Origin: Acidobacteriota bacterium
GTDB lineage: Bacteria > Acidobacteriota > UBA6911 > RPQK01 > JAJDTT01
DNA: 45,203 bases
NCBI GenBank assembly: GCA_028874215.1
Contig: JAPPLF010000102.1
Location: 1 to 45,203, forward strand
Direction of reading: 5' to 3'
Notes under the pieces: model-generated
What the model saw: the letters and a program-made list of their open reading frames with translations, nothing else
Told to the model about the DNA's origin: nothing
Database searches by the model: none
Program-made: the position numbers and the translations under genes
Part shown: positions 10,242 to 37,988 of the stretch, one piece after another
Position numbering within the stretch: the first letter of the stretch is position 1
Layout of the letters: the number at the start of each line of letters is the position of its first letter

Positions 10242-12812
10242 GTGATCTCCTGCCGACGAGACGTTGCCCAGTCGATCTTGCGGAGTCTCGCGGCCATGTT
10301 CGGGATCATATTTCTAACTGCTAGTACCCCTCATGGTGTCCGGCCCACAACCGAACAGACCGAGTTCTTCGAGTCCAAGATCAGGCCGTTGCTAGTAAAG
10401 AACTGCTACCAGTGCCACAGCGAGCAGGCCAAGATCCTGTACTCGAAGTTGCGCGTGGATGGTCGAGCCTCTTTGCTCAACGGAGGCACCCGGGGGGCGG
10501 CAATCGTCCCCGGTGACGCGGACGCAAGCCAGCTTATCCAGGCAGTCCGCTACGAAAACCTTGAAATGCCTCCAGCGGGAAGGTTAACGGAGGCCCAGAT
10601 CCAAGCGCTGGTCAGATGGGTCGAGATCGGAGCACCCTGGCCGGATCTGGAGATTGCCGGCGCTATCAAAACCGCCGACAGGCAAACGAACCAGGCCGCG
10701 AGTGAGAACCACTGGGCTTGGAAGCCTGTGAAGAAGGTTCCCTCTCTCCCAGTTCGGAACAACACTTGGCCCGCCGATCCCATAGACAACTTTATTCTGA
10801 AGAAGCTGGAGGCCCGGGAGCTCGCTCCCTCCCCCGATGCTGACCGCTACACGCTTTTGCGGCGAGTTTACTTCGACCTCATCGGTCTTCCCCCAGAGCC
10901 CGAAGACGTTGCGGCGTTTGTCCACGACGACTCCGAACTCGCCTTCGAAAAGGTCATTGACCGGCTTCTGATATCCCCCGGATTCGGCGAGCGCTGGGGT
11001 CGGCACTGGCTCGATCTGACCAGCTACGCTGACAGTCTGGGACAGGGCCGCCGCATTCCGGCAAGGGAGGCCTGGCGATATCGCGACTACGTCATCAACG
11101 CCTTCAATTCCGACAAGCCCTACGACCGCTTTGTTCAAGAGCAGGTCTCTGGCGACGTCCTCCCCTGGAAAACCGACGCCGAGCGCCGTGAGCAGCTCGT
11201 AGCCACGGGTTTCCTGGCCATCGGGCCCTGGGCCGTGGTGGATTCCGACAAAGAAAAACTCCGCATGGATGTCGTGGACCAACAACTCGACACCCTGGGC
11301 CGGGCCCTTCAAGGCTTGACCCTCGGTTGCGCCCGCTGCCACGATCACAAATTCGATCCCATCCCCACCCGCGAGTACTACGCATTGGCGGGAATCTTCC
11401 GCAGCACTCGAACTCTCAACGGCCGAATGAGCGGCGGCTTCAGCGACGTCAACCGGGTGTTGCTGCCGGAGACCCCGTCCGAGATGAGAAAGCGCGCCCT
11501 CGCCACGGAGGAATACCAACAGACCCTGGACAGGTTCCTGAGCGAATATGAAGCCGTCGAAACTGAAAAGAAGCGCCTGACCGACCGGCAGAAAGCGCTT
11601 GACGAGGCAGGAACCGAAGCCAAGGAGGAGCTGGAGAAGGAACTCAAGGAAATCGACAAGAAGCTCAAGGAAGCGAAGGACCGGATCAGACTGTTGGAGT
11701 TCCGCCGTCCCGGTCCGCCGATGGCCATTGCCGTCCAGGATCGGCCGGTCCCCAAGGACTGTCGCGTCAACATCGGCGGGGACCCGCACAATCTCGGCGA
11801 AGAGGTTCCCAGGGGGTTTCTCTCAGTCGCTTCGCCCGCCAAGGCCGGCCGCATCGACAGCCATCGAAATCTGAAAGGGCTCTACGAGGGTTTCCAGAAA
11901 TCGAGCGGCCGACTGGAGTTGGCCGAGTGGCTCATCGACCCGCAGAACCGCCTGCTGGCCAGAGTCATGGTCAACCGAATCTGGCATCATCTTTTCGGCG
12001 CCGGCTTGGTCCGTACGGTCGACAACTTCGGTGCCGGCGGAGAGCCTCCCAGCCATCCGGAACTGCTCGACTACCTCGCCTCCCGTTTTGTCGAGTTGGG
12101 ATGGTCCGTCAAGGGCATGATCCGGGAGATCGTTCTCACGGGGACCTACCGTCAAGCCAGCAATCACAACCTGAGAGGGCACGAGATCGACCCGGACAAC
12201 CGCCTGCTGTGGCGGGCCAATCGGCGCCGGTTGGAGGCGGAATCCTATCGCGATGCCGTGCTGGCCATCAGTGGCGCGCTGGACCGCACCCGGGGAGGCC
12301 CTACCCTGCCCCTGGATATCCCCGAAAGCATCGCGCTGGGTTTTCCCACGGCACTGACGCAGGACGCCAAGGTGAATGACGAGATTCTGAATCGTCGAAC
12401 GATCTACCTGCCGTCGGTGCGCAAGAATCAGCTCCCGCAGCTCGACCTGCTGAATCTTTTCGATTTCCCCGATCCCGATCAGACCATCGGAGCCCGGTCG
12501 GTCACCACTGTCCCCACGCAGAGCCTCTATCTTTTGAATTCTCCCTTCCTCCGGGAGCAGGCTCTGCTGACGGCCCGCACCCTCCTGGAGGCCGGGGCGC
12601 CGGACGACAAGACGCGGGTCTCCGATTTTTTCCTGCAAGCCTTGAACCGGCCCGCCACCAACCAGGAAGTGGAGCAGGCGCTGGATTTCATCGCGAAATT
12701 CGAAGTGAAGCTGGGCCGTCTGCCGGAGGCGTCTGATGATTCGCGCCTGAATGCCTGGGCGCGCTACTGTCATTCCGTGTTTGCGTCAAACGAATTCCTT
12801 TTTCGAGGATGA
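10242..12812 (+). CDS. planctomycete-type cytochrome c / DUF1549 / DUF1553 protein, copy 1
   Basis: 856 residues from a GTG start with GGAGG 10 bases upstream. An N-terminal hydrophobic signal (about 12-30) precedes a planctomycete cytochrome c domain with the heme motif CYQCH (55-59) and the usual LRVDGRASLLNGG and IVPGDADASQLIQAV elements. DUF1549 follows (about 175-385) with its own CARCHDHKFDPI near 364, then a charged coiled coil (about 420-485), then DUF1553 (about 555-830) opening LAEWLIDPQNRLLARVMVNR. These proteins are thought to be exported heme proteins of polysaccharide or sugar breakdown loci, but their reaction is unknown. It is followed almost without gap by a DUF1501 gene, as in copies 2 and 3. 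It is the shortest of the three, lacking their central insert. Confidence 0.9.
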   Translation: MISCRRDVAQSILRSLAAMFGIIFLTASTPHGVRPTTEQTEFFESKIRPLLVKNCYQCHSEQAKILYSKLRVDGRASLLNGGTRGAAIVPGDADASQLIQAVRYENLEMPPAGRLTEAQIQALVRWVEIGAPWPDLEIAGAIKTADRQTNQAASENHWAWKPVKKVPSLPVRNNTWPADPIDNFILKKLEARELAPSPDADRYTLLRRVYFDLIGLPPEPEDVAAFVHDDSELAFEKVIDRLLISPGFGERWGRHWLDLTSYADSLGQGRRIPAREAWRYRDYVINAFNSDKPYDRFVQEQVSGDVLPWKTDAERREQLVATGFLAIGPWAVVDSDKEKLRMDVVDQQLDTLGRALQGLTLGCARCHDHKFDPIPTREYYALAGIFRSTRTLNGRMSGGFSDVNRVLLPETPSEMRKRALATEEYQQTLDRFLSEYEAVETEKKRLTDRQKALDEAGTEAKEELEKELKEIDKKLKEAKDRIRLLEFRRPGPPMAIAVQDRPVPKDCRVNIGGDPHNLGEEVPRGFLSVASPAKAGRIDSHRNLKGLYEGFQKSSGRLELAEWLIDPQNRLLARVMVNRIWHHLFGAGLVRTVDNFGAGGEPPSHPELLDYLASRFVELGWSVKGMIREIVLTGTYRQASNHNLRGHEIDPDNRLLWRANRRRLEAESYRDAVLAISGALDRTRGGPTLPLDIPESIALGFPTALTQDAKVNDEILNRRTIYLPSVRKNQLPQLDLLNLFDFPDPDQTIGARSVTTVPTQSLYLLNSPFLREQALLTARTLLEAGAPDDKTRVSDFFLQALNRPATNQEVEQALDFIAKFEVKLGRLPEASDDSRLNAWARYCHSVFASNEFLFRG

Positions 12813-12817
12813 TCCCC

Positions 12818-14245
12818 ATGAACCTCCCACCTCACCGAGACTTGACCCGCCGCCGTTTCTTGCAATCCTCCGCTTGCGGTTTCGGCTCAGTGGCGCTGGC
12901 CGCCATGTGCACCGAGCAGGCTTCGGCCGCCGCCGGCCCCCTGGCGCCGAAGGTTCCGCATGTTCCGCCCCGCGCCAAGCGCGTGATTTTCATGTGGATG
13001 GCGGGTGGCCCCTCCCAACTCGACATGTTCGACTACAAACCGCGGCTGGCGAAAGAGAGTGGAGAAGCCATTCCCTACGAGATCCCCGATGGGGTGGGGA
13101 TGGACTTGAGCTGTCTGATGGGACCGATCTCCCCGATGCGGCCCCGGGGACAGTCCGGAATGATGATGACCGATTGGTTGCCCCATATGGCGAAGCACGC
13201 CGATGAGCTGTGTCTTCTCCGGGCCATGCAGGCGGACAACGAAGCTCATGCCCCCGCGGCCAGGCAACTGCACACCGGTGATCCCCGCCTGATTCGTCCG
13301 TCGATGGGATCGTGGGTCGGGTACGGGCTGGGAACCGAGAACCGGAATCTTCCCAGCTTCATCACCATCTGTCCCCTCCTCGTCGACGACACCGGGAACG
13401 TCCAGTTTTTCGGGAATTCATTCCTCCCCGCCGTCTACCAGGGAACGGTGCTGGGAAGCCGGGCCACCGGCGCCGAGAAAGCGGTGTTTCGTTATATCGA
13501 GGATCCGAGCCTGCCTGTCGATCTGCAGCGAGATCAGGTGGATTTCATTCAACAGATGAACCGGGCGCACCTGCAACAGGTTCGATCCGACCGCCAGATG
13601 GAGGGACTCATCCAGTCCTTCGAGCTGGCGTTTCGAATGCAGTCGGAGGCTCCGGACCTCATCGACCTGTCGTCCGAGTCAAAGGCTACACTCGACCTCT
13701 ACGGCATCGGCTGGAAAGAGACCGACGAATTCGGACGCCAGTGCCTGCTGGCGCGGCGCTTTGCCGAAGCCGGCGTGCGTTTCATCCAGATCACCTCCAG
13801 CGGCTGGGACCATCACGAAGCGATCGGCAAGGGCCTCCCCCAAAAGTGCGCCAACATCGACAAGCCCACGGCCGGGCTGATCTCGGACCTCAAGGCCAGG
13901 GGACTGTTCGACGACACGCTCCTCGTCTGGTCGGGTGAATTCGGGCGAACCCCCCACTTCGAGGATTTTTCCTTCGGAGACAAGTCCCAATACGGGCGGG
14001 GTCACAACCCCGAAGGGTTCTGCACATGGATGGCCGGAGGGGGCGTGCGTGGAGGCATGGTCCACGGCGTCACCGACGAGTACGGGCTACGGGCCGTCGA
14101 CCAGAAGGTGCACATTCACGACTTGCACGCCACCATCCTGCACCTGCTGGGCCTCGACCACGAGAGGCTGACCTATCGCTACAGCGGTCGCGACTTCCGC
14201 CTCACGGACGTCTACGGGCGGGTGGTGAATGAGATCCTGGCATGA
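12818..14245 (+). CDS. DUF1501 protein, Tat-exported, copy 1
   Basis: 475 residues if started at ATG 12818. An upstream ATG at 12809 would overlap the cytochrome stop, but it abuts the GAGG at 12805-12808 too closely. The N-terminus has a twin-arginine signal (LTRRRFLQSSACGFG) and the DUF1501 body, a member of the alkaline phosphatase/sulfatase-like superfamily. Characteristic parts are [41 protein letters not shown] and [16 protein letters not shown]. The family is Tat-exported and usually paired with the cytochrome/DUF1549/DUF1553 type, suggesting one exported complex. Substrate and reaction are unknown. The two genes here are clearly one transcription unit. A convergent oxidoreductase gene follows after about 100 bases. 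Confidence 0.9.
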   Translation: MNLPPHRDLTRRRFLQSSACGFGSVALAAMCTEQASAAAGPLAPKVPHVPPRAKRVIFMWMAGGPSQLDMFDYKPRLAKESGEAIPYEIPDGVGMDLSCLMGPISPMRPRGQSGMMMTDWLPHMAKHADELCLLRAMQADNEAHAPAARQLHTGDPRLIRPSMGSWVGYGLGTENRNLPSFITICPLLVDDTGNVQFFGNSFLPAVYQGTVLGSRATGAEKAVFRYIEDPSLPVDLQRDQVDFIQQMNRAHLQQVRSDRQMEGLIQSFELAFRMQSEAPDLIDLSSESKATLDLYGIGWKETDEFGRQCLLARRFAEAGVRFIQITSSGWDHHEAIGKGLPQKCANIDKPTAGLISDLKARGLFDDTLLVWSGEFGRTPHFEDFSFGDKSQYGRGHNPEGFCTWMAGGGVRGGMVHGVTDEYGLRAVDQKVHIHDLHATILHLLGLDHERLTYRYSGRDFRLTDVYGRVVNEILA

Positions 14246-19580: not shown

Positions 19581-19608
19581 GGTCGAAACCTCTCCCTATT
19601 GTCTAATG

Positions 19609-19699
19609 GGAGCCGGAGTTTTCCTACCCCCGCTGTTCCGGTTTGGGAAACCTCAAATTATTACGCGCAAAAGAAGACGGGGGGACTAACAGTCCCCCC
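19609..19699. repeat. degenerate and intact intergenic hairpins
   Basis: GGAG at 19609 opens a decayed hairpin copy (to 19639) that shares GTTTTCCTAC with the intact hairpin at 24367-24396. A perfect 9-bp stem follows: GGGGGGACT (19679-19687) with AGTCCCCCC (19691-19699), loop AAC. It lies between the divergent transporter and cytochrome genes, so it cannot be a simple terminator for either. This supports an element-like origin. Confidence 0.55.
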
Positions 19700-19763
19700 T
19701 CCTGGCGACGATATTCGCCCTGGATTGATATACTCGTGCGACACCCCGAATCGAGGTTGGCGT

Positions 19764-22700
19764 ATGCGCTGGACACCAGTCCGAAGGCTCCAAACCTGGG
19801 CATCTCTCTTTGTGCTCAGCATTATGAGCACCGTCGCCCTGATGAGCGGATCGGGCCCGCCGCCCTCCGCGGACCGGGACGTCGACTTCGCCCGCGACAT
19901 CCGCCCCATCCTCGAGGCCAACTGCAACCAGTGCCACGGCGCCGGCCAGAGCATGAACGGTCTTCGCCTGGATACCCGGGAGGCGGCCCTGAAGGGGGGC
20001 CAGTCCGGACCGGCCATCCTTCCCGGCGACGGTTCCTCGAGCCTCCTCTACCGGAAGATCGTCGGCGACGCCCCGGGGTCTCCCATGCCTCTCACGGGTA
20101 CCCTGCCCCGCGACCAGGTCGAGATGATCCGTACTTGGCTGGACCAGGGAGCCCCTTGGACCGAGGCCATCGATGGAACCGGCGACGGCGTCAAGAAGCA
20201 CTGGGCCTATGTCAATCCGGTCCGTCCTTCCCTTCCGAAGGTCAAAGATATGTCCCGGGTCCGCAATGCCATCGACCGCTTCGTCCTGGAGCGGTTGGAA
20301 CGGGAAGGCCTGGAGCCGTCCCCGGAAGCCTCGCGGGAGACCTTGATCCGCCGCGTGACCCTGGATCTCATCGGGCTTCCGCCGACTCCCGAGGAAGTGG
20401 ACGCCTTCGTCGAGGATCGGCGTCCGCTGGCCTACGAGCGACTCGTCGACCGGCTCCTGGCCTCGCCCCGCTACGGAGAGCGCTGGGCCCGGCCCTGGCT
20501 GGACCTGGCCCGATATGCCGACACCAACGGCTACATCCACGACCGGCGGCGCAACATGTGGCTCTATCGCGATTGGGTGATCAAGGCCATCAGCTCCGAC
20601 ATGCCCTTCGACCAGTTCACCATCGAGCAGATCGCGGGGGACCTGCTGACCGACGCCACTCCCGAGCAGAAGATCGCCACCGGATTCCACCGCAACACCA
20701 TGATCAACACCGAGGGTGGCACCGACCCGGAGGAGTACCGGGTAGCGGCCATCCTGGACCGGGTCGAGACCACCGGAACCGTCTGGCTCGGGAGCACCAT
20801 TGCCTGCGCCCAGTGCCACGATCACAAGTACGATCCCATCACCCAGGAGGAGTACTTCGGGATGTACGCCTTCTTCAACAACACGATGGAGGAGAACAAC
20901 CCGAAGACGAAGGTCCGGCCGCAGAACGCCAGCATCACCCTGCCTCCCGCCGACTATCTGTCCTCTCACCGCTCCGAAATCGAGCGGGAGATCGTGGAGC
21001 TGAAGGCTGCATTGAAACGTTCCACGCCGGAGTTGGAGGCGGCGCGGACTCAATGGGAGACGCAAACGGCCACGGAGATGGTCTCCTGGAGCGATCTGGA
21101 TCCGGTCACCTACTTCTCCCTGGGCGGCGCGGAACTGACCCTTCAGGGGGACGGTGCCCTGCTGGCTTCCGGACCGAAGCCGGGGCGCGAAACGTTTGTG
21201 GTCGTGACCGAGACCCACGTCGAGGGAATCACCGCCATCCGTCTGGAGACCCTGACGGATCCCAGCCTGCCCCACGGCGGGTCCAGCCGGAGTTCCGACG
21301 GGGAGTTCATTTTGACCGAGTTTGAAGTGGTGGCGGAGCCTCTGGCCGCCTCGGGATCCTCCTCACCGGTGGCGTTCAGCGGCGCCGCGGCCGAGATCGA
21401 TCCCGTTACCATGGGAATTCGCCGCGCCCTGGACGGCGACCCCACCACCGGCTGGTCCAACAGCGGGACCAAGCAAGAGAACAGGGTCGAACGCCAGGCC
21501 ATTTTCCTGTCCGAGTCTCCCTTGGGCTTTTCGGGTGGAACCCGGTTCACCATCCGCCTGAGACATGAGGGAGAGAAGCCGGGCAAGACAATCGGCCGTT
21601 TTCGTTTTTCCGTGACCCGGGATCAGGACCCGGCCCGGAACGTCAAGCTCCCGACGCGGGCAGAACGCGTCCTGGCCGTTCCCCCCGTCCGGAGGACCGA
21701 GGTCCAACGCCGGACCCTGAACGACTACTATCGCGGCTTCGCCCCCCTGCTGACGCCGAAACGGCAACGGCTCTCCGAGCTTCTGGCCTTCTGGAAGCAG
21801 TTGACCTCGCCCAACAGCCTGGTCATGAAAGAGCTGGAGAAGCCCCGGACCACCCATCTGTTTGTCAAGGGAAGTTTTTTGGACCCGGGCAAGGAGGTCC
21901 ATCCGGGCGTCCCCACGGTGCTCCATGCCCTGCCGGAGAGCGACACGCCGCCCAATCGCCTGACCCTGGCCCGCTGGCTCGTCTCGCCGGAGAACCCCCT
22001 GGTGGGACGGGTCACCATGAATCGGCTCTGGGCCGATCATTTCGGCCGGCCACTGGTCACGACGCCGGAAAACCTGGGGACACAGGGCGACCGACCCACG
22101 CATCCGGAGCTTCTGGATTGGCTCGCCACCGAGTTCGTGGATCAGAATTGGTCCATGAAGACCATGCATCGTTTGATGGTCACATCGGCGACCTATCGTC
22201 AAGATTCCCGCATGGGAGAGGTCCTGCGGGAAAAGGACCCCTCCAACCAGTTCTACGCCCGTGGGCCGCGCTTCCGGATGGATGCCGAAATGATTCGGGA
22301 CAGCGCGCTGAGCACCGCGGGACTCCTCAGTCTGAGGCCTTACGGTCCCAGTGTCTTTCCGCCTCAGCCCAAGGGGCTCTGGGACAACCTGTACGTGGCG
22401 GACACCTGGATCACGGGTCGCGGTGACGACCGCTACCGGCGGGGTCTCTACACTTTCCTGAAGCGGATTCGTCCCTATCCCTTCTACGCCAATTTCGACG
22501 CTCCCAGCCGTGAGTCCACGTGCGTGGCTCGCAGCCGGTCCAATACGCCGCTCCAAGCGCTGAACTTGATGAACGACCAGACCTTTCTGGAAGCCGCCCG
22601 GGGACTGGCCCACCGCATGATCTCGGAAACGGGTCCGGAAACGGCCGACCGGATCTCCCACGGATTTCGCCTTTGTGTCGGTCGCCGGCCGTCACCCGGA

Positions 22701-22868
22701 GAGCTTCAGGATCTGACCGCCCTCTATCGGCTTCAAATGCAGAACCTGTCCGGATCCGCTCCGGATGCGGCGAATGCGCGCGAGAAGGCGGAAACCGGAG
22801 ATTTCATGGCCTGGACCAGTGTGGCTCAGGTGCTCCTGAATTTGGATGAAACCATCTCGCGACCGTGA
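19764..22868 (+). CDS. planctomycete-type cytochrome c / DUF1549 / DUF1553 protein, copy 2
   Basis: 1034 residues from ATG 19764, supported by GAGG 7 bases upstream. The open frame extends further upstream through a hairpin and was not used. A signal segment (about 8-28) precedes the cytochrome domain with CNQCH (53-57). DUF1549 carries [12 protein letters not shown] near 348. A central beta-rich insert of about 200 residues (roughly 440-640) contains [15 protein letters not shown] and [12 protein letters not shown], typical of a galactose-binding or F5/8-type module. DUF1553 follows from about 734 ([20 protein letters not shown]). The insert, absent from copy 1, suggests binding of a glycan. 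It is followed after 19 bases by its DUF1501 partner. Confidence 0.9.
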
Positions 22869-22887
22869 GTCCCAGGAAAAGGCACCC

Positions 22888-24339
22888 ATGAACAGCCAAC
22901 AGGAGTTTTTGAAAGCCGTCACCCGCCGTCACTTTTTCTTCCGGGGAGGGATGAGCATCGGGTCCATCGCCCTGGCCGGGATGTTGGACGACCGGCTATT
23001 GTCGGCGCCCGCCCCGGATGCCCGCCATCCCATGGCGCCGAAAGCGGGGCACTTCGAACCCAAGGCCAAGAACGTTATCTTCCTTTTCATGTCGGGCGGT
23101 CCTTCTCAGCTCGACATGTTCGACAACAAGCCGCGGCTCACGGAAATGGACGGCCAGAACGTCGCGGAGGGAACGCTGGACGGCAAACGGTTCGCCTTCT
23201 TGCGAGGGACGCCTCAGGCCTTGGCTTCTCCCTACTCTTTCGGTCAATACGGTGAGTCGGGGGGCGAGGTCTCGGAGTTGCTGCCCCACCTCGCCGAGGT
23301 CGTGGACGACCTGACCATCGTAAAGTCGGTCCACGCGGAGCAGTTCAACCACGCTCCGGCACAATTGTTCATGAACACGGGGCACCATCTCATCGGCCGG
23401 CCCAGCATGGGTTCGTGGCTGACCTACGGGCTGGGCAGCGAGAACCGCGACCTCCCGGGCTTCGTGGTCCTGCAATCGGGTCCGGTGGAGGTCTTCGCCG
23501 GCAATTCGTGCTGGGGTCCTGCATTCCTTCCCACCGTCTATCAGGGAGTCCAGTTCCGGTCCCAGGGCGATCCGGTACTCTTCTTGTCCGATCCCGAATG
23601 GATGACCCGCAAGGCTCGCCGCCAATCGCTTGACACTCTGAAGAAGCTCAATCAACGGCAATACGAGGCCGTGGGGGATCCGGAGATCCTGACCCGCATC
23701 GCCTCCTACGAATTGGCCTACCGGATGCAGACCAGTGTCCCCGAACTGATGGACATCAACGGCGAACCGGAGCACATCCACCGCATGTACGGGACCGAGC
23801 CGGGAAAGGAATCCTTCGCCAACAACTGCCTCCTGGCCCGGCGCCTGGTGGAGCGGGGCGTCCGCTTCGTCCAGCTCTATCACCACGGATGGGACCACCA
23901 CGGACTGATCGCCTCGGGGTCCATCATCCACAAGGAGGGGTTGCAGACGCGCTGCCTGGAGATCGACCAGGCCTCAGCCGCCCTGGTGAAGGACCTGAAA
24001 GACCGGGGCCTGCTGGAGGACACACTGGTGGTCTGGGGCGGCGAATTCGGCCGGACTCCCATGAACGAGCATCCCGGAAAGTATCCGGGACGAGACCATC
24101 ATCCGTACGCATTCACCATGTGGATGGCCGGCGGCGGCACCAAGCCGGGAACCACCGTGGGCAAGACCGACGAGCTGGGATTCGACATCGTGGAAGATCC
24201 CATCCACATGCACGATATGCACGCAACCATTCTCCATCTGCTGGGTCTGGACCATACCCGGCTGGTCTACAAGTTCCAGGGACGCCAATTCCGCCTCACG
24301 GACGTGGGCGGCCACGTGGTGGACAAGCTGCTCGCATAG
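22888..24339 (+). CDS. DUF1501 protein, Tat-exported, copy 2
   Basis: 483 residues from ATG 22888, preceded by AGGAAAAGG. An in-frame ATG at 22846 would overlap the cytochrome gene and is less likely. A twin-arginine-type leader is present ([16 protein letters not shown]). The body has the family marks [46 protein letters not shown] and [17 protein letters not shown]. The closing [11 protein letters not shown]...KLLA matches the other copies. This alkaline-phosphatase-fold protein pairs with the cytochrome gene upstream. Its reaction is unknown. A double hairpin follows the stop codon. Confidence 0.9.
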
Positions 24340-26528: not shown

Positions 26529-27602
26529 CTACCGGCAAAGGCGATCCAGCTTGCGTTTGGCCTCTTCTCCCCAACCGGCGGTGCTGTCGGCGACCCGGCC
26601 TTCCTCGTCCACCAGGATCGAGAACGGGACGAACATCTCGTCTCCCGCGAAGATCTTCTTCAGATCCTCCTGTTCCAGCAGGTAGACCGGATAGGACACG
26701 CCCAAGTCTCGGGCATATGATTCCACGTCTGAGAGGGGAACCCCCTGGTCGAGACTGAGACCGATCACCTGGATGCCGTTCTCTTCCAGCTTGGCCTTGG
26801 CCGCTTCCAACTCAGGCATCTCCCGCCGGCACGGCCCGCACCAGGTGGCCCAGAGATTCACCAGGTACGACGTTCCCTTCTCCAGCGGAAGCGAGACCTC
26901 CTCTCCCTCCGGAAGCGTCTTCAGCGCCAGCTCGGGCATGGGCAGGCCCCGTTTGATCTCCAGCTTGCTCCAGAGGACCTGTTCCTCCTCCAGGGGATCC
27001 GGCAAAGCGGCCGACGGCAGGGACAGGGCCTGGTAGTCCGGTTCCTCCTCCACCAGCTTCAAGGAGGTGCCGGAGGGAATGGGACCGACCCGCTGGCGAA
27101 CACCGGAGGGCCAGGTAACTTCCATCCATTCCGCCTCCTTGGTCTCCCCCAGTCCGAACAGGAGCCGCCGGTCGGGCTGAGCCATGAAACCGCTTCCCCC
27201 CGAGAGGATCCGGGTCTGGACCCCCAGGGGAGTCTTCACCCGGACCTGGGCGCCGAATGCGTCCTTGCCGCTCTTCGTCCCCTCCAGCTCGACGCGAATG
27301 AAGCCCTTGTCCTGGCCCACGTTGTTGCGGAACAGGAGATGACCTTCGCCCTGGATGGTGGTGAGAAAGATGTCCAGGTCGCCGTCGTTGTCCAGGTCGA
27401 CGGGAACTGCCGAGCGTCCGTCGGAGATGGAGTCGATGCCCGAGACGCCTGAAATGTCCTGAAACCGGGTGCCCTCCCGATTCAGGAAAAGGGCATCCCG
27501 TTCGAATCCGCTGAAGGACAGTCCCTCCTCGAAGAGCAGAGCCATATGGTTCGTCTGGTAGTCCTGGTTGCCGGCCTTCTCGTCGCCGACCGTGGACGCC
27601 AC
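26529..27602 (-). CDS. FG-GAP/ASPIC/TlpA protein, C-terminal part downstream of an in-frame UGA
   Basis: This is the same reading frame as the gene at 27624-29333, separated from it only by a TGA at 27624-27626. It holds a VCBS-type repeat (VDLDNDGDLDIFLTT), an ASPIC/UnbV domain (GAQVRVKTPLGVQTRILSGG, then WMEVTWPSGVRQR) and a TlpA-like thioredoxin domain with CGPC in NLWATWCGPCRREMPEL. On its own it would lack a signal peptide, although ASPIC and TlpA domains normally work outside the cytoplasm. The GTG at 27602 has no ribosome site, nor does the later ATG near 27545. It is therefore best read as the C-terminal part of a 934-residue protein made by UGA read-through, or as the lower half of a gene broken by a recent nonsense change. 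Confidence 0.75.
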   Translation of the reverse strand: MASTVGDEKAGNQDYQTNHMALLFEEGLSFSGFERDALFLNREGTRFQDISGVSGIDSISDGRSAVPVDLDNDGDLDIFLTTIQGEGHLLFRNNVGQDKGFIRVELEGTKSGKDAFGAQVRVKTPLGVQTRILSGGSGFMAQPDRRLLFGLGETKEAEWMEVTWPSGVRQRVGPIPSGTSLKLVEEEPDYQALSLPSAALPDPLEEEQVLWSKLEIKRGLPMPELALKTLPEGEEVSLPLEKGTSYLVNLWATWCGPCRREMPELEAAKAKLEENGIQVIGLSLDQGVPLSDVESYARDLGVSYPVYLLEQEDLKKIFAGDEMFVPFSILVDEEGRVADSTAGWGEEAKRKLDRLCR

Positions 27603-27626
27603 GACGTGGCGCCAGAAGAAGCTTCA
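27593..27626 (-). other. in-frame UGA with downstream stem-loop, candidate selenocysteine recoding site
   Basis: The TGA at 27624-27626 (codon 570) is flanked in the same frame by GKSMKDT before and SFFWRHVVASTVGDE after. Twelve bases after it, CGCCAC (27611-27606) pairs with GTGGCG (27602-27597) around a GUC loop. The stem extends by a G-U and a G-C pair (27612-27613 with 27596-27595). The distance from UGA to the apical loop is about 18 bases, within the range known for bacterial SECIS elements, and the loop contains a G and a U. The stem could also arise by chance from the codons for Arg-His-Val-Val-Ala. Confidence 0.4.
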
Positions 27627-29333
27627 TGTGTCCTTCATGGACTTGCCGCTGATGAACCCGTTGGGAGAGTAGAGGTCCTCCCAGCCGTCGTTGTCGAAGT
27701 CCACGAAGACTCCGCCCCAGGCCCATCCGGCAACGAAGGGTCCGAACTTGCCGCTCACGTCCCGAAAGCCGCCCCCGTCCAACCCTTCGAACAGCGTATT
27801 TCCCGCCGCCAGCTTCTTGAGTCCGCTGCGGTCTCCCCGGCCCTGCGGGAACAGCCGGTCCAGGATCCGGTTCCCGGCCGTCGAGGACATGTTGGTGACG
27901 TAGAGGTCGATCCGCCCGTCGTTGTTGAAGTCGCCGAAGGAAACGCCCATTCCATTGCCGGGGTCCAGCAGCCCCATGCTCGCGGCCCGGTCCTCGAAGC
28001 GGTCTCCCAGGTTCACGTAGTAGCCGTTCTCGCCGAAGTCGTTGGCCACGTAGAGATCCAGCCGTCCGTCTCCGTTGATGTCGGCGAATTGGGCGGCATA
28101 GCTCCAGCGCTGGTCGCGGACACCCCACGCGGCCCCCGCTTCCCGGAAGCTTCCATTCCCTTGATTCAGGAAGAGCAGGTTCGGAGTCCCGTTGGAGGCG
28201 CGGTGCCAGGAGTCGGGCATGACCCGGCCGTAGCGGTTGTAGGAGGCAACGTAGACGTCGGTCCAGCCGTCCTTGTTCACGTCACCGGCGGTGGCGCTGA
28301 AACCGATGGCGTTCACCGCGATGCCGACCTCTTGCGAGATGTCGAAGAAGAGCAGTCTCCCGGAGGGCACAAGGCGGTTCTCGAACAGCATCTGCTCTCC
28401 CACCGAGGCCATGAAGACGTCCAGATCGCCGTCGTTGTCGTAGTCGAGGAGCAGCGGCGCCGTGCCCGGCGGGGTGATCGAGATCCCCGCCTTGTCGGCC
28501 ACGTCCTGAAACTGGCCGCCCTGGTTCAGGTAGAGGTAGTTCCGGTTGATGCCCGTGACCACCAGATCCTGCAGCCCGTCCTGGTTCAGGTCTCCCGCAG
28601 CGGCGCCGTGATAGACGAAATCATCGTTTCCCGGTTCGCCATACCGGGGCAGCGAATTGGAAACTCCGGCCGGAATGCAGACCTCCGAGAAGAGGTCTGC
28701 CGACGCCCGCATGGTCCTGACTTCGTCCAACTGGAATTCGGAGATCTGCCAGTTTTCCTCCCCGGTCTTGACCGCGACCAGACGGCCCGTTCCCTTCACC
28801 CAGAATCGATGGCTCTTGCCGTCACGCCCGATCAGGAAGAACTTGAGGTCCCCCTTGCCCTCGACTTTCGCCCTCCGCTCGTTGAAGCGGGCCCCCTTGA
28901 CCTGAAAACGGGCATCCTCGACGGATGAGAAGGACTCCAGGAACTTCTCCCAGCTCTTCACCAGTCCGGTCCGGGGCACCTTCTTCGGACGCTTGCGCGT
29001 GACGCGGGGCGCGGCAGTCGAGATCCATTTGAACTCCGAAGCCGGGACACCGGAAAGAGCCGGCCACGGCGTCACCCGGGACGGGGACTCGAAGAACTCG
29101 CCAATCCGTTTCAGGTCCCGTTCCCGGACCGTCACCGAGAATTCCAGGAGGGAGTTGGCCAGGGATTCGGAGAGTTCCTCGGTCTGTTCCAGTTCGGCTT
29201 TGTCCAGCTCGACTTCCCCCAGAACGGGGAGTAAGGCAAGAAGACCCAGCAGGAGAACAGCGGGGGGCCAACCCGGATGTCGGCGAGCCGAGGGGATCCC
29301 CCGTGCGGATTTTGGTGCTGAATGGAGCTTCAA
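27624..29333 (-). CDS. FG-GAP/VCBS repeat protein, N-terminal part upstream of an in-frame UGA
   Basis: 569 residues before the TGA. A basic N-terminus and hydrophobic segment (about 25-39, AVLLLGLLALLPVLG) form an export signal. About 180 residues with no recognised motif (DLKRIGEFFESP, then a beta-rich part) follow. From about 230 a series of FG-GAP/VCBS calcium-loop repeats appears: DLNQDGLQDLVV, DYDNDGDLDVFM, DVNKDGWTDVYV, DINGDGRLDLYV, DFNNDGRIDLYV and DFDNDGWEDLYS. This is the beta-propeller of CRTAC/ASPIC proteins, probably binding calcium. The propeller is not complete when the stop is reached: the next repeat and the ASPIC and thioredoxin domains lie in the same frame after it. Family role: exported, possibly in redox or protein maturation outside the cytoplasm. 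Confidence 0.8.
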   Translation of the reverse strand: MKLHSAPKSARGIPSARRHPGWPPAVLLLGLLALLPVLGEVELDKAELEQTEELSESLANSLLEFSVTVRERDLKRIGEFFESPSRVTPWPALSGVPASEFKWISTAAPRVTRKRPKKVPRTGLVKSWEKFLESFSSVEDARFQVKGARFNERRAKVEGKGDLKFFLIGRDGKSHRFWVKGTGRLVAVKTGEENWQISEFQLDEVRTMRASADLFSEVCIPAGVSNSLPRYGEPGNDDFVYHGAAAGDLNQDGLQDLVVTGINRNYLYLNQGGQFQDVADKAGISITPPGTAPLLLDYDNDGDLDVFMASVGEQMLFENRLVPSGRLLFFDISQEVGIAVNAIGFSATAGDVNKDGWTDVYVASYNRYGRVMPDSWHRASNGTPNLLFLNQGNGSFREAGAAWGVRDQRWSYAAQFADINGDGRLDLYVANDFGENGYYVNLGDRFEDRAASMGLLDPGNGMGVSFGDFNNDGRIDLYVTNMSSTAGNRILDRLFPQGRGDRSGLKKLAAGNTLFEGLDGGGFRDVSGKFGPFVAGWAWGGVFVDFDNDGWEDLYSPNGFISGKSMKDT

Positions 29334-33014: not shown

Positions 33015-33205
33015 CTTTCCCTCCCCGCGAGTCCGCGAAAAAGCCGTTCCCATAGGGTTTGACTACACAGCATCGAGACCCTATCCGAACACCGGCGGCA
33101 GCGCAAACCGGCGCTGCCGGGATCTCGTGCAAGTTGTTGATCCAACGTCGGCAAAGTGCGTCGAAGACAGAAAGATATGCTATCGTTTGGGCGCGGGTAC
33201 GAAAC

Positions 33206-36200
33206 GTGCTGATTCCCTGTACCATCGCGATTCCGAACCTCAGGCTCCGCCTCTTGGCGATTCTGTTTCTGGTGCCGTTCCTGGTCCTCGCCAATGGCCG
33301 CTCCCTCCTGTCGGCGCCATCCGGCGCCCAGAGCGACCGCGAGGCCATGGAGTTCTTCGAGACCAAGGTCCGCCCTCTCCTGGTCGAAAACTGCTACTCC
33401 TGCCATGGCGACAATCAGCAGCTCTCCTCGCTCAGAGTCGATTCCCGCGAAGCCCTCATGAAGGGTGGTCTTCGAGGGTCCGCTCTGGTTCCCGGTGATC
33501 CGGACCGGAGCCTGATCATCCAGGCCGTCCGGCATCAGGAGCTGAAGATGCCCCTGGGCCGCATGCTCGCCGACGCCGAGATCGGTCACTTGGAGAGCTG
33601 GGTCCGGATGGGAGCGCCGTGGTCCGCGGTTCCCGACGTGACCAACGAACCCGATTTTTACGCCCGCCTGATCCGGGAGCACTGGGCCTTCCAGCCGGTT
33701 GCCGATCCCGATCCTCCGCAGGTGGATCATCGGAGCTGGTCCGGAACACCGGTCGATCGCTTTCTGCTGGCGGCGCTCCGCAAGGAGGGACTGGAGCCGG
33801 CGGAGCGGGCCGATATCCGTACCCTGGCCCGGCGCCTCAGTTTCTCGGTCGTGGGACTGCCGCCGGATCCGGCCAGCGTGGAGGAGCTGCTCCGGGACCG
33901 GTCCGGGCAGGCCTACGCCAACTTCGTGGACCGTCTCGTGGATTCTCCCCATTTCGGGGAGCATTGGGCGCGTCACTGGATGGACGTGGTGCGTTTCGCC
34001 GAGACCTACGGATACGAGTGGAACTACATCGTCAAGGGAGCCTGGCGCTACCGCGACTACCTGATCCGCGCCTTCAACCAGGACGTCCCCTACGATCAAC
34101 TGGTAAGGGAACATGTCGCCGGCGACCTGCTGGAAGACCCCCGGATCAACGTCCCGCTGGGAATCAACGAATCCGCCACCGGTTCGGCATTCCTCCTCAT
34201 GGGTGAGATGGGGCACGACGACTGCATCGAGTTCCGCGAAATACGCACCGATGTCGTGGACGACCAGATCGACACCCTCACCCGGGCCTTCCAGGGACTC
34301 TCCGTGGCCTGTGCGCGCTGTCACGACCACAAACTGGATCCCATTCCCATCGAGGACTACTACGCACTGTACGGGATCCTGAACAGTGCCCGTCCGGTCA
34401 CCAGCACGCTGGACACGGGTGGTTCCCAGTCTCCGCTGATGCAGCGCCTGCGGGCCCTGAAGCCGCAGATTCGGTCGGAGCTGGCTGCCGCCTGGTTGAA
34501 GCAGGTCGAGGAGATGCCGGCCTATCTCCTGGCGGCGCAGGCCCCGGTCGATCCGGCGTCGGCGGATACCACCACTGATCTCCAGCCCCAACGCCTGGAA
34601 AGATGGATCCAGGCGCTCCAGAAGGAGAGCGTCGATCCGGAGAGCTTTCTCTATCCCTGGTCGACGGTCACCTGCGAAGGGGGTCTGGCGCCGGAACGGT
34701 TTCAGGAACTATGGCAAAAGGTTGCGCCGAAGCACTTGAAAGAGATCCGCGACCGCCAGGCCTATAACACGGAGAACTTCACTTCCCTGTCTCTGAGCGA
34801 CTGGTACCCCGAGGGGGTGGGATTGCTTGAAGGCCGATCGGAGAACGGCGAATTCGTCCTGGCCCCGGAAGGACAGGAGGCGGTCAACGGAGTCTATCCG
34901 GCCGGGATCTATACCCACGCCCTTTCGGAACGGCTGAACGGGGCGCTTCGCTCTCCCTATCTGCCCAAGGAAAAGAAGTTTCTCAGCCTCCAGGTCATGG
35001 GTGGAATGCTCGGCGGGCGCCGGGCGGTGGTGGACAACTGCATGCTGGGCGAGGGCGTCGAAGTCTTCGACAGCACGGACTTGAACTGGCAGAAGATCTC
35101 GACTCTTCAGGACAAGGAGCGGTTTCCCGTCTATGTCGAGCTGGTCACCAAGACCAGCAACCCCCGGCTCCCGGACCGGCCCAAGAGGATCAAGGGATTC
35201 ACCGAGGAGAAGATGGCGGCGCCCGGATCCTATTTCGGCATTGCCCGGGCCATGTTCCACGACGTGGAGGATCCTCCCCGCAAGGATCTTTCCCATCTGT
35301 TGCCCTTGTTTCGGGACCCGGCTCCCAAAGATCCCACGGAAGCCGCCCGGCGCTACGCGGAGCGAAGCCGTGAGGCTATGGAGGCCTGGTCCCGGGGAAC
35401 ACCCGACGAAAACGACGTCCGCTGGATCCATTGGCTCGTCACGAACCACCTGGTGGACAATTCCGTCGATCTCACTCCCAGACTCTCGCAACTGATTGCC
35501 GAGTACCGAGGCATCGAATCCGGCATTTCTCAACCCCAGACCATCAACTCGTTGCTGGACATGGGTTCGGGGCGGGACTATTCCCTGCTGAAAAGTGGTG
35601 ACGCCGAGAATCCGGGGGACCCCGTACCGCGCCGCTACCTGACCGCGCTCACCGGGGGACGGACCCTCGAATCCAATGGAAGCGGCCGGCAGGAGCTGGC
35701 GGAACTCATTGCCTCTCCCCGGAACCCCCTCACCGCACGGGTCATGGTCAACCGGGTCTGGAACTACCTTTTCGGACGAGGCCTGGTAGCCACAATCAAC
35801 GACTTCGGCAACTTCGGGGAGCGTCCCTCCCACGCCCAGCTACTCGACCATCTGGCGAACCGGTTCATCGCCGACGGCTGGTCCCTGAAACGGCTGGTCC
35901 GGCGGCTGGTCCTTACCCAGGCTTTCCAACAGTCGAGCCGGACGTCCGAGGCAGCCTCGCGGATCGACCCTGAGAACCGGCTTCTGCACCATTACCCGGT
36001 CAGGCGCCTTGAGGCCGAGGCCATACGTGACTCTATTCTGGCCACTTCGGGCCGTTTCGATCCCTTGCGCTACGGTCCCAGTATCGAACCCTATCGGCTG
36101 AAGACGAAGGAGTACCGGAAGCTCCACGCCGGTCCACTGGACGGGCACGGGCGCCGGAGCGTTTACCTGCGGGTCACCCGCATGGAGGGCCCCCGGTTTC

Positions 36201-36559
36201 TGGAACTCTTCGATTTTCCCGTCCCCTCCGTCTCCAGAGGGCGTCGGGACGTGACGAACGTGCCCTCCCAGGCTCTCGCCATGCTCAATGATCCCTTTGT
36301 GATCCAACAGGCGGATTTTTGGGCCGACAGGATTCTGGAACACGAAGGGGGGACGCTGGAGGAACGCTTGGAACGAATGTTTGTCAAGGCGTTCTCCCGG
36401 CCCCCGAGTGCCGAAGAGGTGGCCCGTTTCGTAGAGCTGGCCCGGAAGCTGGGACGCTTGTATCAGGTTCCGCAAGAGCATATCCTGGCCAGCAAAGTGA
36501 TTTGGAAGGACGTGGCCCACAGTCTCTTCAACACGAAAGAGTTCATCTACCTGAGGTAA
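33206..36559 (+). CDS. planctomycete-type cytochrome c / DUF1549 / DUF1553 protein, copy 3
   Basis: About 1117 residues if started at GTG 33206. No in-frame ATG precedes the signal segment, and a TTG at 33059 would give a 1166-residue form. A hydrophobic leader (LLAILFLVPFLVLANG) is followed by the cytochrome domain with CYSCH near 63-67 and LRVDSREALMKGG. DUF1549 has CARCHDHKLDPI near 368. The central part (about 430-780) is a long insert containing FLSLQVMGGMLGGRRAVVDNC and VYVELVTKTSNP, unlike the insert in copy 2. DUF1553 opens at about 830 (LAELIASPRNPLTARVMVNR). The DUF1501 partner follows after 4 bases. This is the largest of the three copies. Confidence 0.9.
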   Translation: MLIPCTIAIPNLRLRLLAILFLVPFLVLANGRSLLSAPSGAQSDREAMEFFETKVRPLLVENCYSCHGDNQQLSSLRVDSREALMKGGLRGSALVPGDPDRSLIIQAVRHQELKMPLGRMLADAEIGHLESWVRMGAPWSAVPDVTNEPDFYARLIREHWAFQPVADPDPPQVDHRSWSGTPVDRFLLAALRKEGLEPAERADIRTLARRLSFSVVGLPPDPASVEELLRDRSGQAYANFVDRLVDSPHFGEHWARHWMDVVRFAETYGYEWNYIVKGAWRYRDYLIRAFNQDVPYDQLVREHVAGDLLEDPRINVPLGINESATGSAFLLMGEMGHDDCIEFREIRTDVVDDQIDTLTRAFQGLSVACARCHDHKLDPIPIEDYYALYGILNSARPVTSTLDTGGSQSPLMQRLRALKPQIRSELAAAWLKQVEEMPAYLLAAQAPVDPASADTTTDLQPQRLERWIQALQKESVDPESFLYPWSTVTCEGGLAPERFQELWQKVAPKHLKEIRDRQAYNTENFTSLSLSDWYPEGVGLLEGRSENGEFVLAPEGQEAVNGVYPAGIYTHALSERLNGALRSPYLPKEKKFLSLQVMGGMLGGRRAVVDNCMLGEGVEVFDSTDLNWQKISTLQDKERFPVYVELVTKTSNPRLPDRPKRIKGFTEEKMAAPGSYFGIARAMFHDVEDPPRKDLSHLLPLFRDPAPKDPTEAARRYAERSREAMEAWSRGTPDENDVRWIHWLVTNHLVDNSVDLTPRLSQLIAEYRGIESGISQPQTINSLLDMGSGRDYSLLKSGDAENPGDPVPRRYLTALTGGRTLESNGSGRQELAELIASPRNPLTARVMVNRVWNYLFGRGLVATINDFGNFGERPSHAQLLDHLANRFIADGWSLKRLVRRLVLTQAFQQSSRTSEAASRIDPENRLLHHYPVRRLEAEAIRDSILATSGRFDPLRYGPSIEPYRLKTKEYRKLHAGPLDGHGRRSVYLRVTRMEGPRFLELFDFPVPSVSRGRRDVTNVPSQALAMLNDPFVIQQADFWADRILEHEGGTLEERLERMFVKAFSRPPSAEEVARFVELARKLGRLYQVPQEHILASKVIWKDVAHSLFNTKEFIYLR

Positions 36560-36563
36560 TGCC

Positions 36564-37988
36564 ATGACCCAGCAAAACAAGGAACAAGGCCTTTGTCCGG
36601 GTTGCCTCGGCGCTCCGCTGACACGGCGCCAGATGCTGTCGTTGAGCGCCAACGGGTTCGGACTGACCGCCCTGTCCGCTCTTATGGCTGAAGACGCCTA
36701 CGCTGGTCTGGTCCCGACTCCACCGACCCATTTCGAGCCCAAGGTCAAGAACGTCATCCTCTGTTTCATGCCCGGCGGTGTCTCGCAGATGGACACCTTC
36801 GATCCCAAACCCAAGCTGAGCGAGTTGCACGGCAAGCCCTCCGGTGACGGGATCCGGACCTATCAGGGTTGTCACTGGACCTTCAGGAAATACGGGAAAT
36901 CGGGGATCCCCGTGAGTGAGCTCTTTCCTCACATCGCCACCTGCGTGGATGATCTGGCCATTGTTCGCTCCATGGTCTCCAACTTCCCGCTGCACCCGCG
37001 CGGCAACATCCTTTTCCACACCGGCCGCAACGTCGGCGGTTACCCGAGTCTGGGATCCTGGATCACCTACGCGCTGGGGAGCGAGAACAAGAACCTGCCC
37101 GGATACGTCCTTCTCCACCCTGAAGCCACGTCGATCCCGCCGGGAGGATTGGAGAACTTCTCCAACGGCTTCCTCCCCGCAACCCACCAGGCGTTGCCTG
37201 TGAAGGCGGAGGGGACACCCATCGAGAACCTGGTCCCCGCCGACGAGGGCGCCATCCAGAACACCAAGTTGTCGGTGTTGCTGGACCAGGATCGGGATTT
37301 TCTGGCCGAGGCCGGCAGAAACGACGCCGTCGAGTCGGCCATCCGAAACTACGAAATGGCCTACCGGATGCAGTCCCTCGTCCCTGATGTGCTGGACCTG
37401 TCTCGCGAAACGGAAGCTACAAAGCGGCTCTACGGCCTGGACACCTCCAACAAGGACCAGCGGAACTATGCCCTGCAATGCCTCCGGGCGCGGCGGCTGA
37501 TCGAGTCGGGCGTCCGTTTCGTGGAGGTGACGCCGCCCGTCCTTTTCGGCGCCACCAACGGCACGTGGGACCAGCACACCAACCTGAAGAAAGGACATGA
37601 GGGGAACGCCCTGGTGGCGGATCAGTCTGTGGCCGCCCTGATCAAGGACCTCAAGTCCAGAGGAATGTTGGATGAGACGCTGGTCATCTGGGGCACCGAG
37701 TTCGGCCGCACGGTGGACACCGGAACCAACGGAGACGGCCGCGACCATCTGGAGACGGCCTTCACCATCTGGATGGCCGGCGGTGGGGTCAAGGGGGGGA
37801 CCGTGTATGGCCGGACCGACGACATCGGCAAGACCGTGGTGGAAAACAAGACCACCGTCCACGACCTGCACGCCACCATCCTGCATCTGCTGGGACTGGA
37901 CCACGAGCGCCTGGTCTATCGTTTCGGGGGCCGCGACGAGAGTCTGACCGACGTCCACGGCCGCGTGGTCCACGAAATTCTGGCCTGA
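36564..37988 (+). CDS. DUF1501 protein, Tat-exported, copy 3
   Basis: 474 residues. The start ATG is 4 bases past the cytochrome stop, with GAGGTAA as the ribosome site. Before the twin-arginine leader (LTRRQMLSLSANGFG) sits a short extension with two cysteines (LCPGCLGAP) that copies 1 and 2 lack. Family marks are MPGGVSQMDTFDPKPKL, GTWDQHTNLKKGHEGN, VIWGTEFGRTVDT and [16 protein letters not shown]. The [12 protein letters not shown] element is nearly identical in all three copies. It is a partner of the cytochrome protein upstream. The reaction is unknown. Confidence 0.9.
   Translation: MTQQNKEQGLCPGCLGAPLTRRQMLSLSANGFGLTALSALMAEDAYAGLVPTPPTHFEPKVKNVILCFMPGGVSQMDTFDPKPKLSELHGKPSGDGIRTYQGCHWTFRKYGKSGIPVSELFPHIATCVDDLAIVRSMVSNFPLHPRGNILFHTGRNVGGYPSLGSWITYALGSENKNLPGYVLLHPEATSIPPGGLENFSNGFLPATHQALPVKAEGTPIENLVPADEGAIQNTKLSVLLDQDRDFLAEAGRNDAVESAIRNYEMAYRMQSLVPDVLDLSRETEATKRLYGLDTSNKDQRNYALQCLRARRLIESGVRFVEVTPPVLFGATNGTWDQHTNLKKGHEGNALVADQSVAALIKDLKSRGMLDETLVIWGTEFGRTVDTGTNGDGRDHLETAFTIWMAGGGVKGGTVYGRTDDIGKTVVENKTTVHDLHATILHLLGLDHERLVYRFGGRDESLTDVHGRVVHEILA

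Follow-up and report, generated by a model that had tools for sequence, protein, structure and literature searches.

Nearly all known selenoproteins have homologues with cysteine (Cys) at the selenocysteine (Sec) position. Those of bacteria, in 119 catalogued families or subfamilies (PMC13188914), combine an in-frame UGA, a SECIS hairpin right downstream of it, sel genes in the genome, and a probable redox role, and all of these features recur at the locus described here. The encoded protein also shares its propeller and ASPIC architecture with the CRTAC1 or FG-GAP/ASPIC family, in which murine CRTAC1 (9etn) is its best PDB match in both sequence and fold. Its C-terminal domain, with a conserved WCxxC, is that of the TlpA/ResA thiol-disulfide oxidoreductases (1jfu, 4nmu). 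It apparently belongs to a large, undescribed family of exported bacterial selenoproteins spread over at least five phyla.

We analyzed a stretch of 45,203 nt (the window), which forms contig C102 in a draft genome of 5.7 Mb (97.5% complete) from an Acidobacteriota bacterium. A genome of the same order (G014) encodes a protein identical to one from Acidobacteria bacterium AH-259-O06, as expected for this phylum. The gene of interest lies on the minus strand at 26529-29333 (TTG start assumed, stop codon included), as do all of its features given below. Its frame is open over 934 residues save for one internal TGA at 27624-27626, codon 570. A reading of the sequence alone had described domains that stay coherent on both sides of this TGA, and Pfam bears this out by finding FG-GAP_3, UnbV_ASPIC, and TlpA/redoxin. 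Near the N-terminus, a hydrophobic stretch (residues 25-40, 29214-29261; WPPAVLLLGLLALLPVLG, read by eye and similar in orthologues) is a probable export signal. It is followed by an FG-GAP/CRTAC1-like calcium-binding beta-propeller (residues 243-660, 27354-28607), which Pfam FG-GAP_3 matches in six stretches, and by an ASPIC/UnbV domain (residues 692-758, 27060-27260; PF07593, 58.1 bits), the order of FG-GAP repeats and UnbV_ASPIC seen in the CRTAC1/ASPIC family. The TlpA/ResA-type thioredoxin domain (residues 796-920, 26574-26948) was identified by Pfam TlpA/redoxin, a PDB profile, and Foldseek; it has both the thioredoxin fold and the WCxxC, with the CxxC itself (C832-GP-C835) at 26829-26840. 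Among solved structures, the PDB profile and Foldseek comparisons paired the propeller and ASPIC portion best with murine CRTAC1 and the C-terminal portion best with TlpA/ResA.

The TGA might be a genuine stop, or a nonsense mutation within the frame, that leaves a pseudogene or a truncated protein of 569 residues. In the standard bacterial code, UGA does mean stop, and automated ORF calling breaks the gene into two parts, at 27624-29333 and 26529-27602. Yet against three relatives of the same genus, dN/dS was 0.08-0.15 upstream of the UGA and 0.05-0.09 downstream of it. Purifying selection is thus comparable on either side and as strong on the downstream codons as on the upstream ones, which led us to reject a pseudogene. 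The UGA is also conserved among homologues, as described next, and the CxxC encoded beyond it is intact in all 61 full-length UGA-bearing members, which makes termination at codon 570 exceedingly unlikely.

Alignment of homologues at codon 570 had been proposed as a check, and the UGA proved to be retained. It occupies the same codon, within a continuous conserved protein, in at least 93 genes. The first searches gave 13 of these, the window gene among them, and at least 80 more came from scanning 84,980 species genomes for a pattern that accepts TGA, TGC, or TGT. The motif around it is D-[TL]-U-S-x-x-W-R-[HQ]-V. The carriers belong to Acidobacteriota, Planctomycetota, Verrucomicrobiota, Latescibacterota, and Myxococcota (the last with one Myxococcaceae genome), and the proteins range down to about 28% identity with the window protein. 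A sequencing or assembly error could be suspected because the window comes from a draft genome, but an identical UGA in independent assemblies across many species, phyla, and projects refutes this idea, and we give it practically no weight. The TGA is real and no artefact. Among the 80 matches listed from the genome scan, all 80 carried TGA and none had a Cys codon at position 570. Cys homologues are a usual, though not universal, trait of selenoproteins, and since they are absent here, the customary Sec/Cys comparison cannot be applied.

The same genome encodes a second family member (C101:89731-92217), 36% identical to the window protein, which has a UGA at the same codon and its own SECIS. 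It carries a long C-terminal extension beyond the thioredoxin domain, with putative TPR-like repeats. The genome as a whole shows a very large FG-GAP/ASPIC expansion, with at least 150 FG-GAP_3 matches in dozens of proteins. Within the window, three PSCyt1/PSCyt2/PSD1 and DUF1501 gene pairs surround the selenoprotein gene (10242-14245, 19599-24339, and 33059-37988). No conserved gene neighbourhood emerged across 91 loci, in only 4-5 of which the flanking PSD1/DUF1501 genes recur.

The sequence-only reading had also placed a hairpin just downstream of the UGA. The hairpin is present at 27595-27613, with 8 bp closing on a GUC loop as described, but its stem begins 10 nt after the UGA and not 12. 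Its core consists of six pairs, 27612-27607 with 27601-27596, and it folds at -12.0 kcal/mol (z = -3.3). In most relatives, the apical loop is GGUCG. The SECIS of E. coli fdhF likewise presents an apical GGUC-type loop, with a spacing of about 11 nt from the UGA to the upper stem. When the hairpin was scored as the earlier reading had suggested, its loop, stem, spacing, and energy all fell inside the published bacterial SECIS model (stem 4-16 bp, loop 3-9 nt, a G among the first two loop nucleotides, a UGA-to-loop distance of 16-37 nt, and MFE of -7.5 or lower; PMC13188914), with a stem of 6-8 bp, a loop of 3-5 nt, the G present, and 17-18 nt from the UGA to the loop. The energy threshold of this model is reached by 94% of the 93 genes. 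A scan of the hairpin against Rfam returned no SECIS family and one chance match. A covariance-model scan of the whole host genome recovered the window gene (E = 7e-13) and the paralogue on C101 (6e-12), the remainder being noise.

We compared 85 distinct homologous sequences at a fixed spacing after the UGA. All six core pairs form in 86% of them, vs 2.8% after synonymous recoding, with the proviso that most of these pairs follow from the codons for the conserved W-R-[HQ]-V residues, and to some extent from the search pattern, leaving only one of the six free to covary. This pair links the wobble base of Arg575 (27609) with the first position of codon 579 (27599), nine codons after the UGA. 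In 84 of the 85 sequences, these two bases form a standard pair (C-G 26, A-U 22, G-U 20, G-C 10, and U-A 6). The Arg codon tracks the residue at +9, with CGC accompanying Ala GCG, CGA or CGG accompanying Ser TCG, CGG accompanying Pro CCG, and CGT accompanying Thr ACG. Because the Arg wobble base pairs with the first base of codon +9, the amino acid at this position follows the RNA. For this pair, an alignment of 55 sequences contained 35 cells with a two-sided change and 1 that was broken. None of 500 shuffles matched the observed pairing or covariation score, and slid controls reached at most 70%. The codon right after the UGA is AGY in nearly all members, possibly as a context preference; the serine is TCG in a Mariniblastus sequence (L098) and AGT in its close relative L141.

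A search of the host genome for sel genes, another suggested check, found all four components. The tRNA-Sec scored 68.9 bits and was called SeC with anticodon tca by ARAGORN; SelA, SelB, and SelD scored 532.7, 346.9, and 300.3 bits. The four genes are spread over separate contigs (C66, C93, C99, and C10), and no sel operon is therefore visible. Among 396 Acidobacteriota genomes, a full selA match was present in 26 of the 29 that carry the UGA pattern, vs 249 of 396 overall (Fisher P = 0.001, treating genomes as independent of kinship). Another 50 UGA-bearing genomes contained a full selA in 41 cases and selA fragments in 3. This leaves selA missing from 3 of the 29 and 6 of the 50 UGA-bearing genomes, which are drafts, though one of them (G007) is rated 91% complete.

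Such gaps bear on a further possibility, in which a near-cognate tRNA, e.g. that for Trp, reads the UGA with help from the hairpin and without selenium. A hairpin on the 3' side of a stop codon can promote readthrough, and the lack of Cys homologues, together with the three Acidobacteriota genomes without a full selA match, would fit this explanation. It accounts poorly for a hairpin whose loop, spacing, stem, and energy all agree with the bacterial SECIS model, for a host with the complete set of sel components, and for conserved Trp residues close to the site that are encoded by TGG. It is further opposed by the loss of the UGA along with the thioredoxin CxxC, which is described below and points to a redox residue. 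We regard selenium-free readthrough as very unlikely. The UGA at codon 570 is very probably decoded as Sec, a reading on which the host sel genes, the homologues at codon 570, the SECIS-model fit, and the covariation all agree.

Six homologues have another residue in place of Sec: Asn (L058), Ser (L059), Ala (L195-L197), or Glu (L194). None of the six retains an intact hairpin, and the thioredoxin CxxC is gone from five; L058 keeps it as GCRAC, and L194 has lost the whole thioredoxin domain. No full selA match was found in the three genomes with Ala. Retention of the CxxC in 61 of 61 UGA members, compared with its loss in five of six others, gave a Fisher P of 6e-7, with relatedness ignored. 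We aligned 63 full-length proteins, 61 with UGA and 2 without. In the 61 UGA members, the Cys-class positions that are invariant are 570, 832, and 835, i.e. only Sec and the two cysteines of the CxxC. In a tree, the non-UGA proteins fall in two places, nested within UGA clades, which indicates secondary loss. The sequence-only reading had named a homologue with an unrelated residue such as Glu at codon 570 as evidence against Sec. Such a homologue does exist in L194, yet the Sec reading stands, because this protein is a nested loss in which the hairpin and the entire thioredoxin domain have also disappeared. Across the family, the Sec residue and the fused thioredoxin domain appear to be kept or lost together.

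An AlphaFold model of the protein, with Cys substituted for Sec, reached a mean pLDDT of 88.9 and a pTM of 0.87. In this model, residue 570 is the first residue, and thus the N-terminus, of a helix spanning 570-581. Seven ordinary ASPIC proteins encoded by the host genome are missing 35-45 residues exactly at the site of this helix, and Sec therefore sits on a family-specific helical insert in the propeller (about residues 562-610, 27504-27650).

Based on these observations, we propose that the product is an exported oxidoreductase. In vivo, the SECIS hairpin, which starts 10 nt after the UGA, would direct SelB and tRNA-Sec to decode this codon as Sec. Translated in full, the protein would combine a CRTAC1-like propeller, an ASPIC domain, and, at its C-terminus, a thioredoxin domain of the TlpA type, and it would probably be exported by way of its N-terminal hydrophobic stretch. 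Sec, at the N-terminus of its helix in the stretch inserted between the blades of the propeller, would act as a reactive, helix-capping selenol, which the CxxC of the fused TlpA domain would most likely resolve and re-reduce. We assign the recycling to this CxxC since no other Cys is universally conserved, and we lean toward a redox relay between Sec and the fused domain.

The prokaryotic selenoprotein catalogue of May 2026, with its 119 families, includes no FG-GAP, ASPIC, or CRTAC family (PMC13188914), and NCBIfam 20 has no model for this family, giving only generic thioredoxin matches. A literature search located no paper that pairs FG-GAP with selenocysteine, although subscription journals and preprints were little covered and an earlier mention is possible; searches on CRTAC1, UnbV, and VCBS returned nothing relevant. 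A 2016 paper on Planctomycetes gives its selenoprotein candidates in a supplement (PMC4807772). The authors of deep-Sep noted that selenoproteins without Cys homologues may be missed (PMC12013277), and the family may have gone unrecorded because detection of this type relies on such homologues. Current finders need them, and the UGA-bearing ASPIC family is a case for which none was found. Its UGA is taken for a stop, which probably leaves the genes mis-annotated, with the protein truncated or split.

The UGA, the hairpin, and the sel genes support the suggestion, made from the sequence, of a selenoprotein family in the exported CRTAC/ASPIC group. It would be an apparently new and very widespread family, found in phyla that are abundant in soils and the sea. 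We consider it likely that Acidobacteriota, Planctomycetota, Verrucomicrobiota, and others harbor widespread, unrecorded exported selenoproteins that lack a Cys counterpart and in which Sec and the TlpA domain fused to a calcium propeller form an intramolecular redox relay. If true, this would give part of the CRTAC1/ASPIC superfamily a biochemical role, offer testable redox chemistry for this large group, and perhaps help to sustain Sec decoding in those phyla. The hairpin also provides a case of RNA pairing dictating an amino acid four codons downstream of a conserved Arg.

Set against the described systems, the locus differs from each in a particular way. Compared with the SECIS of E. coli fdhF, the window hairpin differs in stem sequence, and no bulged U was identified in it. 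Catalogued selenoproteins differ in having Sec at a thioredoxin-like active site, whereas here it lies in a propeller insert, with no nearby UxxC or CxxU partner and no Cys homologue found. The same holds against Sec-containing ResA-like families such as WAxxUGC_long (NF041054), as Sec here is outside the thioredoxin domain. Unlike TlpA and ResA, the window protein has its thioredoxin domain fused to a Sec-bearing propeller. To the architecture of CRTAC1 and the FG-GAP/ASPIC family, it adds both the Sec-bearing helical insert and the fused TlpA domain.
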